From assembly GCF_024362785.1 (NCBI RefSeq), contig NZ_CP093301.1:4340001-4404000 (forward strand): a DNA stretch of 64,000 nucleotides, read 5' to 3'. Position numbers and translations under genes: made by a program. This document shows positions 27,610 to 30,078 of this stretch, one piece after another. The stretch comes from Evansella sp. LMS18. Lineage in GTDB: Bacteria; Bacillota; Bacilli; Bacillales; Salisediminibacteriaceae. The notes below the pieces were generated by a model that saw only the letters and a list, made by a program, of their open reading frames with translations, was not told the origin of the DNA and made no database searches. Positions within the stretch are counted from its first letter, which is position 1. Every line of letters begins with the position of its first letter.

Positions 27610-28704
27610 TTAATTCGCCGCTCTGGCAGCGTTAACTAACCCGTTTCCGAAATAGTATGAGCTTCCCAGATTTGTGGCTGTACTGTTCAGTCTGTTTCTT
27701 ATTTGGACATTGGTGGCGTTTGGATAGCGTGATTTTACTAATGCTGCGACACCAGCGACGTGAGGGCTTGCCATTGACGTTCCATTAAGTGAAACATATC
27801 TGTTAGTAGGGTAAGTACTTAATACAGATACTCCTGGAGCCATTATCTCCAGTTCATTTCCAAATGTTGAAAAAGACGCGCGGTTGTTGTTGGAGTCTGT
27901 GGCACCTACTGCCATAACAGAATTATACCGAGCTGGGAAGGAGATTCCTGCTGAGCCTGTATTACCAGCCGCTGCAACAAGTAAAATGCCTCTGTTATAA
28001 GCGTTATCAGCAGCTTGTCTTAATGCAGTGGATCCAGTCGAACCACCTAAACTCATATTAACTATGTCCATATTATTTGCGATAGCCCACTCAATACCCC
28101 GGGCAATACCGCTAAGAGAACCGCTGCCGTTTCTGTCAAGAACTTTAACTGCATAAAGATTAACATCTGGCGCTACACCAAGAACTCCATAAGTGTTGTC
28201 CCGGGCTGCTATTGTTCCTGCCACATGCGTTCCGTGGCCATTAAGGTCGTTGTAGGAAGGTTCCGAAGTGATAAAACTGGCTCCTCCAGAAATTCTTAAA
28301 TCTTCGTGGCTTGCAATTCCAGTATCCAGAACAGCAACTCTTACTCCGTTACCCCGGGCTCCCCAGGAATGGACGGTTGGTGCCTGAACACGGTTTATCC
28401 CCCAAGGAATGGTCTGGCTGGCCGTTACTTCTTCGTCTTTTTCCACAAATGCTATGTTCGGGTTCTTTTTCAGTGCTTCCGCTGCTTTTTCCGGCAAGCT
28501 TACATGCAGCACTTCCATGTACTCGTATTCATGCTGAATGTCTCCGCCAAGCTGGGTAACTGTGTTCTCATTAACTTTGTCTTTAAAACCAATTAAGTAA
28601 TCAAACTTTTCGACACCTTTGCTATCTGCACTCACCGCTGAAAAAGTGAATGTGAAAGCTAGTAAAAACCCAATAATAAACCCTATAAACCTCATATTCT
28701 TCAT
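27610..28704 (-). CDS. Secreted alkaline serine protease (subtilisin family)
   Basis: The 364-residue preproenzyme has a signal peptide (to about residue 26), an inhibitor_I9 propeptide (about 34-93) and a mature domain starting near '[13 protein letters not shown]' (about 269 residues, the size of Savinase/M-protease). The catalytic triad is Asp127 (VAVLDTGI), His157 ([10 protein letters not shown]) and Ser310 ([12 protein letters not shown]); the oxyanion Asn is 248 (AAAGNTG). High-alkaline subtilisins of this size are typical of alkaliphilic bacilli. ATG follows AAGGAGGAAGACAGAA. A palindrome shared with the PlcR-like regulator lies 145 bp upstream, suggesting density-dependent control. 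Confidence 0.95.
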
Positions 28705-28847
28705 TTCTGTCTTCCTCCTTTTAATAGATTAATTTATATGCTATTTTAAATATTCCGAGATTAAAAACACCAAAAAACCTTTTAATCCGCAAGTATTACC
28801 CATTAGCTGACTATTTGCTTATTCTGGTGAAGTTTTCTGTACGAAGG

Positions 28848-28863
28848 GATTAACATATTAATC
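28848..28863. promoter_or_regulatory. 16-bp palindrome upstream of protease
   Basis: GATTAACATATTAATC is the exact reverse complement of the site at 29824. It lies upstream of the subtilisin start on the minus strand and is a candidate binding site for the adjacent regulator. Confidence 0.6.
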
Positions 28864-28929: not shown

Positions 28930-29808
28930 TTAACTTTGTCTTATCAATGTCATTTCTTCTTTTAGGGCTGTGATAAAAACTGGGACTGGGTCCAGTTCAT
29001 AGACCCAGAGAGCCTCTTCAAGCAATTTAATACAGGTTTCTTTCTCCGCGGGATCGTAGCGGAAGAGTGTGCTGCCTTTTTGAAAAAGAATGTGTCCCAG
29101 CAGATATAATTGCTGCTCTTTAATACATGTGTTCAATGCTTTATCAATATAGTCTAATGCCTCTCCGTATTCATGCCTGTCATAAGCATTTCTGCTGGCA
29201 TTATACAAAACACGAATAACTAAACGCTTATTCTGAATAACACGGAGGGAAGCGACATCTCTTAAAATTTTGCTGTAAATATGAGCTGCATCATCCAGTT
29301 TTTTTATAAGGCTGTAAATGATTGCTTTAGACGCCAAAATATCTATTTCCACTTCAGAAAACTTCTTCTCTGACTTCCCCATATTAAAAGCATTATCGAG
29401 AAGTTCTAACGCTTGATCAGCATTGTTATGCAGATAATACACACATATTCCTTCTCTCCATAACAGGTACTGCTGCAAATGATTTTTGTTAAACAGGGGG
29501 TTGTTCTTTTCAAGTTCTACTATGGCCATTACTTCTTCATATTCCTGGTCACGGATATGTTTGTCAATTGTATTCATTACTTCCTTCACATAATTCAGGC
29601 CGTCCCTGGATATATCATCAAAAAAGTAATTTAAGTCGACCCCTAAACGGACTGCTATCTGGTGTAAAATCGGGGCAGTGGGAGTAGCTGTATTTGTTTC
29701 GATTCTGCTTATCAGTCCTTGTGTGCAAATATCCCTGCATAATTCTCTTTGTGACATATTCAAGTGTTCTCTCAAATCTCTTATTCTGTCTCCTAACGTA
29801 TAATCCAT
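28930..29808 (-). CDS. PlcR-like HTH/TPR quorum-sensing regulator (RNPP family)
   Basis: The 292-residue product has an N-terminal XRE-type HTH (about 5-62; 'LREHLNMSQRELCRDICTQGLISRIETN'). A helical repeat (TPR) domain to the end follows, with 'VLYNASRNAYDRHEYGEALDYIDKAL' and 'LLGHILFQKGSTLFRY'. By eye it aligns along its full length with B. cereus PlcR (285 residues), which binds the re-imported peptide PapR through its TPRs and activates exoenzyme genes. ATG 29808 has AGGAGG 7 nt upstream and is preferred to 29841. A small secreted-peptide gene is divergent and a protease gene lies downstream. Confidence 0.85.
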   Translation of the reverse strand: MDYTLGDRIRDLREHLNMSQRELCRDICTQGLISRIETNTATPTAPILHQIAVRLGVDLNYFFDDISRDGLNYVKEVMNTIDKHIRDQEYEEVMAIVELEKNNPLFNKNHLQQYLLWREGICVYYLHNNADQALELLDNAFNMGKSEKKFSEVEIDILASKAIIYSLIKKLDDAAHIYSKILRDVASLRVIQNKRLVIRVLYNASRNAYDRHEYGEALDYIDKALNTCIKEQQLYLLGHILFQKGSTLFRYDPAEKETCIKLLEEALWVYELDPVPVFITALKEEMTLIRQS

Positions 29809-29823
29809 TTGAAACCTCCTGAA

Positions 29824-29839
29824 GATTAATATGTTAATC
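29824..29839. promoter_or_regulatory. 16-bp palindrome in regulator/peptide divergent region
   Basis: GATTAATATGTTAATC (arms GATTAA/TTAATC). It lies between the ribosome site and promoter of the regulator, and 24 bp upstream of a TATAAT box for the peptide gene, about -44 from its inferred start site. Confidence 0.6.
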
Positions 29840-29863
29840 AAGATAGAAGAAAAAGGGATATTG

Positions 29864-29869
29864 TATAAT
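29864..29869 (+). promoter_or_regulatory. -10 box of the peptide gene
   Basis: A perfect TATAAT without a good -35 box at 17 bp; the palindrome at 29824 sits where an activator would bind. Confidence 0.5.
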
Positions 29870-29961
29870 AATAGCTAAGATAATTGCCTGTATTAACAGT
29901 TTTTCGAAAATGCAGGGAATTTACCTATATGCAATAATTAGAAAAAAAGGAGGGAAAATAC

Positions 29962-30078
29962 ATGCAAAAACTACTGATTGTTGGAATGGTTAGTGCATTT
30001 CTTTTTGCGTTACCTTTTTCTGCTATGGCAGGGAGCGAACACCCAGCTGAGGCGCCACCGCCATACACTCACGGGTAA
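29962..30078 (+). CDS. Small secreted prepeptide, candidate PapR-like signal
   Basis: The 38-residue product has a Lys after the start, a hydrophobic core (LLIVGMVSAFLFALPF) and a signal-peptidase-like A-M-A site at 21-23. That leaves a 15-residue tail starting GSEHPAEAP and ending PPPYTHG. Size, signal and position beside a PlcR-like regulator fit the prepeptides of RNPP systems (PapR 48, NprX about 43 residues), whose active part is the C-terminal 5-8 residues. AAGGAGGG precedes ATG. In B. cereus papR follows plcR on the same strand; here it is divergent. The signalling role is inference. Confidence 0.65.
   Translation: MQKLLIVGMVSAFLFALPFSAMAGSEHPAEAPPPYTHG

Follow-up and report, generated by a model that had tools for sequence, protein, structure and literature searches.

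The regulator gene and the divergent small gene

The window, meaning the whole stretch of 64,000 nucleotides analysed here, contains a regulator gene, a small gene read divergently from it and, behind the regulator, a subtilisin gene, together with two palindromic candidate operators (listed without strand):

27610..28704, minus strand: secreted subtilisin (S8, Carlsberg/Savinase class), likely target; Peptidase_S8 at 5.8e-66
28738..28743, minus strand: candidate subtilisin -10, TAGCAT (4/6), 119 bp from the operator start
28848..28863: operator 2, GATTAACATATTAATC, upstream of the subtilisin gene; second exact place in the genome
28930..29808, minus strand: PlcR-type RRNPP receptor and transcription regulator, 292 aa, ATG start
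29815..29820, minus strand: regulator ribosome binding site, AGGAGG
29824..29839: operator 1, GATTAATATGTTAATC, just upstream of the regulator ribosome site; 14-bp core invariant in 9/9 loci
29930..29938, plus strand: extended -10 of the peptide gene, TGCAATAAT, at the same operator spacing in 11/11 exact-operator loci
29947..29954, plus strand: peptide-gene ribosome binding site, AAGGAGGG
29962..30078, plus strand: putative secreted pro-pheromone gene, 38 aa, divergent, conserved in 9/9 orthologous loci
30055..30075, plus strand: PPPYTHG, likely mature pheromone core (5-8 residues), within the invariant PPxYTHG end of nine loci

The regulator matched the Pfam families RNPP_C (2.8e-21) and HTH_3, and a search of solved structures in the PDB returned PlcR (2qfc, E 1.1e-14, residues 5-261) as its sole near-full-length match and its closest relative in sequence among solved receptors. 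Thus the original prediction of a protein that is PlcR-like along its whole length and ends at 28930 was confirmed. With 292 aa and the RNPP_C domain, the regulator also has the size (about 250-500 aa) and the TPR peptide-binding domain expected of RRNPP(A) receptors. The AlphaFold model, built from two sequences, was poor (pLDDT 65, below 50 in the HTH); Foldseek placed PlcR chains at ranks 1-5 for this low-confidence model, with an rmsd of 18-19 A to PlcR, and we take the model as supportive only of the likeness to PlcR. The recognition helix reads TQGLISRIE, compared with HQSEVSRIE in PlcR. The nearest named relative is Evansella clarkii DSM 8720; the two regulators share 95% identity.

The ATG at 29808 is the likely start of the regulator, with AGGAGG standing 6 nt ahead of it. 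A longer frame from a TTG was rejected because it would start next to the operator and has no AGGAGG like the one ahead of the ATG. A regulator promoter match, TTAATA-17-TATTAT, was also found; promoter-like matches numbered 4, against 5.2 in shuffled sequences, so it was left unused.

The same genome codes for a second PlcR-like regulator (G000:C1:3093832-3094629; L008, L094) with 33% identity, which lies ahead of a region for a lipoprotein and an ABC transporter. We detected no small secreted frame next to it that was convincing; this regulator may be an orphan or respond to a different peptide.

The peptide encoded by the small gene is MQKLLIVGMVSAFLFALPFSAMA-GSEHPAEAPPPYTHG. As had been claimed, its frame ends at 30078, the divergent gap measures 153 bp from ATG to ATG, the strong ribosome site AAGGAGGG lies ahead of the ATG, and 15 residues ending in PPPYTHG follow the A-M-A site. 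Its 38 aa, hydrophobic core, cleavage site, adjacency to the receptor gene and conservation are those of a Sec-signal propeptide of an RRNPP(A) system. No family match to the peptide was obtained in Pfam, NCBIfam or PHROGs.

We compared nine close-ortholog loci: the window itself (L003), the locus L004 of genome G004 (regulator identity 95%), and seven genomes of a second genus of the family (L024-L030, 58-63% identity). A divergent frame of 36-38 aa with a signal-peptide-like start and a PPxYTHG end was found in all nine loci of the two genera, x being P, E, K or R. At the DNA level, the pattern for PPxYTHG followed by a stop codon occurred once per genome in 9/9 genomes with the ortholog and in 0/4 genomes of the same two genera without it, and the reversed-pattern control gave 0 in all 13 genomes. 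Across the 36 pairwise comparisons of the nine loci, the last seven codons except x differed by 141 synonymous and 0 amino-acid-changing substitutions, while the x codon showed 29 amino-acid changes. The last seven codons are, on this codon evidence, under purifying selection. The three outer orthologs (69, 59 and 49% identity) end in GPPYIHG, GPPEYVHG and KPPYIHSD, so that the frame was kept in 3/3 of these as well as in 9/9 close orthologs; conservation in relatives was the very point on which the original prediction had staked itself beforehand. The frame is short and without a match in the three family collections, as a chance open frame would be. However, its conservation, its codon pattern, its promoter and its single occurrence per ortholog genome leave that explanation a negligible chance and we rejected it; judged by these comparisons, the divergent frame of 38 aa is a genuine gene.

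Directly behind the stop codon of the peptide gene we noticed one copy of a dispersed repeat, GGTGCCTG(T/G)CACC, present in six copies within the 64 kb (window positions 2850, 6125, 11154, 23948, 30089 and 44774).

Operators, their spacing and the subtilisin gene

The original prediction mentioned neither the operators nor the linked subtilisin. In the genome of 4,903,744 bases, the palindrome GATTAACATATTAATC has two exact copies only, one before the regulator and one before the subtilisin gene. Its 14-bp core, ATTAACATATTAAT, was identical in 9/9 orthologous regulator-peptide gaps, the flanks having diverged, and a second copy with at most 3 mismatches from the 16-mer was present behind the regulator in 7/9 loci, operator 2 being more degenerate in L028 and L030. 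Fifteen genomes together held the core at 16 places, 15 of them at the regulator-peptide-subtilisin locus, and it was found 0 times in six genomes without a regulator ortholog. Read toward the target, the core is ATTAATATGTTAAT at both the peptide gene and the subtilisin gene, i.e. in the same orientation. The PlcR box is given as wTATGnAwwwwTnCATAw in the passages of PMC2464732 that define it; GATTAACATATTAATC has the same 16-bp geometry with T in place of G4 and A in place of C13. Among more distant regulators, L006 (helix SQGLISQIE) has TATTAATTTATTAATA and L005 (helix TQAEISRIE) has TATACACATATGTATA at the corresponding operator place. Such pairing of recognition helix and operator could serve as a lead on operator specificity, drawn from very few cases.

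The positions of the operators relative to the promoters were fixed, as counted from the first base of the core to the first base of the -10. For the peptide gene this distance was 108-109 bp, with an extended -10, in 11/11 exact-operator loci (12 examined), and it stayed fixed while the distance from the -10 to the start codon varied by 11 bp. For the subtilisin gene it was 119 bp (120 in L025) in 9/9 loci, while the distance from operator to start codon varied from 158 to 200; with one base of slack, offset 119 was the only one of 160 at which at least 4/6 of TATAAT was found in all nine loci. Between the two genes the distance thus differs by 10-11 bp, which is about one helical turn.

The subtilisin matched Carlsberg-type chains at E about 1e-104, and a homolog (51-100% identity) stood behind the regulator on the same strand in 9/9 orthologous loci. 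Among the outer orthologs it was present in L065 and absent in L064 and L066; the more distant loci L033 and L036 also carry a subtilisin behind the regulator. Its absence behind two of three outer orthologs fits the idea that the quorum-sensing pair is real and the protease a mere neighbour, with the true targets elsewhere, and so does an additional operator of the E. clarkii-like genome, which stands ahead of an exported protein unrelated to the subtilisin. Against this, one of the only two exact operators of the window genome lies ahead of subtilisin, the operator to -10 spacing holds in 9/9 loci, and none of the other checked sites with 1-2 mismatches is accompanied by a good -10 at an expected offset. 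We therefore regard a bystander role of the subtilisin as quite unlikely. Own-genome sites with 1-2 mismatches to the operator showed a weak excess, 45 in the forward orientation versus 25 in the reversed control. A search for further own-genome targets at L010-L022, L090, L092 and L093 found none with at least 5/6 of TATAAT at the expected offsets, where L015-L017 and L019-L022, with more than 2 mismatches from the 14-bp core, contributed no site to this -10 check.

The additional exact operator of the E. clarkii-like genome (G004:C2:98405; L091 2506-3485) was found by sequence only. It is accompanied by a perfect TATAAT (6/6) at +119, ahead of a frame for a protein of 254 aa which has an export-type start and no Pfam match; in AT-rich parts of the window, the background rate of a 6/6 TATAAT at three given offsets is 0.005. 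Judging from this arrangement, the exported-type protein is a likely third target in that genome.

Comparison of the genomes thus showed the gene pair, its conservation, the operators with their fixed and phased spacing, and the subtilisin linkage. We read the locus as a dedicated RRNPP quorum-sensing cassette that would autoinduce its peptide and switch on one secreted subtilisin, and give this reading a probability of roughly 0.78; the protease would probably be released only when enough neighbours are present. By analogy with PlcR and from the positions of the sites, the small gene would yield a Sec-exported propeptide, and cleavage by signal peptidase with further trimming would leave a pheromone from the C-terminal end, about 5-8 residues long and containing PPPYTHG. 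The pheromone would build up with cell density and be re-imported by an oligopeptide permease (13 SBP_bac_5 binding proteins are encoded in the genome), after which it would occupy the TPR pocket of the regulator. With the peptide bound, the regulator dimer is expected to bind the two copies of the 16-bp PlcR-box-like palindrome. From operator 1 it would activate the divergent peptide gene, a positive feedback, and from operator 2 the secreted subtilisin. As operator 1 lies just upstream of the regulator ribosome site, the regulator probably also limits its own synthesis.

The same position of operator 1 would suit blocking, and PrgX-type receptors follow the opposite logic, in which the free regulator represses and the peptide relieves. 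Repression of the peptide and subtilisin genes by the free regulator nevertheless seems unlikely. Neither operator overlaps the -10 of either gene, and both lie at fixed distances of 108-120 bp upstream and in phase, which fits activation; moreover, PlcR, the closest solved relative, is an activator in the account of its regulon in PMC2464732. Several observations weigh against the cassette itself: the subtilisin linkage missing from the two outer loci, the degenerate operator 2 of L028 and L030, and the window subtilisin -10 that matches in only 4/6 positions. Measured from the inferred start sites, the operator centres lie at about 113 and 124 bp, which is far for a simple activator, and no -35 was identified.

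Peptide ends and receptor pocket in the wider family

To place the pair within its family, we scanned 148 regulator loci, 54 from earlier searches and 94 hand-picked among the matches listed. By a fixed rule, a small secreted frame with a PapR-like end was present at 79 of the 148 loci, and 69 of these frames were divergent; divergent signal-peptide genes with PapR-like ends are thus common beside PlcR-like regulators of the order. Since the pair is conserved and such genes are common, the candidate quorum-sensing reading of the original prediction is well supported by the comparison. Its remark that the divergent order differs from plcR-papR also held, yet this order is not unique to the pair.

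The peptide ends across the wider family include LPYEH, LPFEH, IPFKHG, LPYRHG, LPNQH and LPPVH. Published PapR classes are LPFE(F/Y), VP(F/Y)E(F/Y), MPFEF and LPFEH, as set out in the class description of PMC5007282. The claim that the window peptide ends unlike PapR was only partly right: PPPYTHG falls outside the class [LVM]P[FY]E[FYH], but its Y-T-H matches F-E-H in register, the register being set by Y-x-H, and relatives bridge to LPYEH and LPFEH. Because family ends read LPYEH, LPFEH, IPFKHG and LPNQH, PPPYTHG counts as a diverged PapR-like end. In PPEYTHG, PPKYTHG and PPRYTHG the proline stands one place further from H than in LPFEH, and therefore the alignment of the proline is ambiguous. 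Some propeptides carry 2-5 tandem end units, which suggests that the mature signal consists of the C-terminal 5-8 residues. Tandem copies of the mature end in PlcR-type propeptides were seen in L163, with up to five ELPPVH units, and also in L157, L129, L148, L162, L185 and L186.

A further locus, L087 (NC_013792.1, plasmid pBpOF4-01 of Alkalihalophilus pseudofirmus OF4), has a PlcR-like regulator with 35% identity that is divergent from an annotated YcaO/SagB-type modified-peptide gene cluster, possibly a quorum-controlled one.

We also aligned the 69 divergent loci on the peptide -10 and searched them for perfect arm palindromes. These gathered only at 108 (6) and 109 (8), 14 in all versus a mean of 0.37 per offset. 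After the 11 clade members were removed, 2 remained at 109 (the ortholog-like L095, and L005) and one each at 108 (L150) and 110 (L079). Extending the operator-position rule to the wider family was accordingly rejected, the excess being mostly gone, and the spacing rule is shown for the clade alone. Three further cases were seen after the rule was known: L006 with its best -10 at 118, L038 with 5/6 at 108 without the TG, and L065, whose operator is imperfect, with TGcTATAAA at 109.

At positions 87, 89 and 197 the residues of the window regulator are R, Q and R; it retains N201, which presumably has a role in the receptor pocket. The pocket description in PMC5007282 has K87, K89 and Y275 of PlcR holding the Glu of PapR and K197 holding its C-terminal end. 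In an exploratory analysis of 79 pairs (looser rule, 148 loci, one peptide group handled by hand), we ranked 291 receptor columns by how strongly they associate with the class of the residue that precedes the final H of the peptide. Columns 87, 89 and 197 ranked 12, 18 and 35; columns 201 and 237 ranked 19 and 26, columns 64, 159 and 241 ranked 153, 176 and 214, and Y275 lies outside the fragment used. Columns 25 and 46 of the HTH region ranked first, which makes kinship a strong part of the association signal, and several DNA-binding columns stood above the pocket columns.

A regular expression picked 74 of the 148 loci, passing over L024-L030 and misreading L065. In this set, 7/13 rows with a basic residue ahead of the final H had D or E at 87, versus 1/61 others; all seven come from two genera, one of the 13 (L078) is a wrong pick, and L038 and L136 are clear exceptions to this pairing. 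A Gln before the final H was paired with two basic receptor residues in 16/20 rows of the same set. The peptides of L179, L180 and L187 read VPDSF by the 74-locus rule and LPNQH by the 79-locus rule. The pairings are suggestive of a pocket code (acidic 87 for a basic residue, Arg87/Arg89 for Gln, Lys89 for Glu), subject to these exceptions and to kinship.

The peptide might instead be secreted without being the ligand, e.g. as a small antibacterial or protease-modulating product of a gene that is merely co-regulated, and a table in PMC2464732 has small secreted peptides called antibacterial under the control of PlcR. We consider this very unlikely, as the leader is variable while the short C-terminal end is invariant, relatives end in LPYEH, LPFEH or LPNQH with tandem end units in some, and columns 87 and 89 of the pocket show an association with the peptide residue. 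A pheromone role remains our preferred reading. A bolder proposal, which we put forward as possible but doubtful, is that activation in the clade proceeds from an unusual site, fixed some 10-11 helical turns ahead of the -10 and phased alike at both targets, and that the PlcR-type receptors and their pheromones make up a large family of mostly divergent pairs with specificity in a few pocket residues.

Relation to known systems and meaning

By its sequence features the locus belongs to the PlcR type of RRNPP systems, and it departs from PlcR-PapR in gene order, box, peptide end and gatekeepers. It shares with PlcR-PapR of the Bacillus cereus group the HTH and TPR receptor (aligned over residues 5-261), a small Sec-type propeptide whose C-terminal end is near LPFEF/LPFEH, a 16-bp palindromic box with the same arm geometry, and exported enzymes, proteases among them, as targets. 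In PlcR-PapR, papR lies behind plcR on the same strand, which fits the locus numbers, whereas here the peptide gene is divergent. At the two places where PlcR needs G4 and C13, the window box carries T and A, the gatekeepers K87/K89 of PlcR are R/Q in the window regulator, and the regulon is apparently one locus (at the stringency used) compared with 45 genes for PlcR.

Quorum-sensing control of a neighbouring secreted protease is also known from NprR-NprX-NprA. NprR is a longer, Rap-related receptor with NprX behind it, and its protease is of a class unlike the window subtilisin. The arrangement also resembles RopB-SIP-SpeB of Streptococcus, where, by the account of the locus in PMC10518010, the RRNPPA activator has a peptide gene read divergently and a secreted protease as neighbours. 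That system has a RopB-clan receptor, a short leaderless peptide and a cysteine protease on the peptide side, unlike the signal peptide, the PlcR-type receptor and the serine protease behind the receptor found here.

We found no published description of the window regulator-peptide pair, which may be an unnamed row in the supplementary tables of an RRNPP survey. Large surveys of this kind exist (PMC10075063, PMC9765709, PMC12700828), and a term search turned up no mention of Evansella in their main texts. A literature search with six peptide strings gave nothing relevant.

For the host, which we take to be an environmental alkaliphile, the locus would amount to a minimal quorum-sensing circuit of a peptide, a receptor, one exported enzyme and two operators, in which the theory of density-controlled public goods would be testable with three genes. 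Enzymes of the Savinase/Carlsberg class, to which the subtilisin belongs, are used industrially, so a peptide switch for it could have practical use. The many divergent relatives with differing peptide ends would offer natural material for the specificity code between receptor and pheromone.
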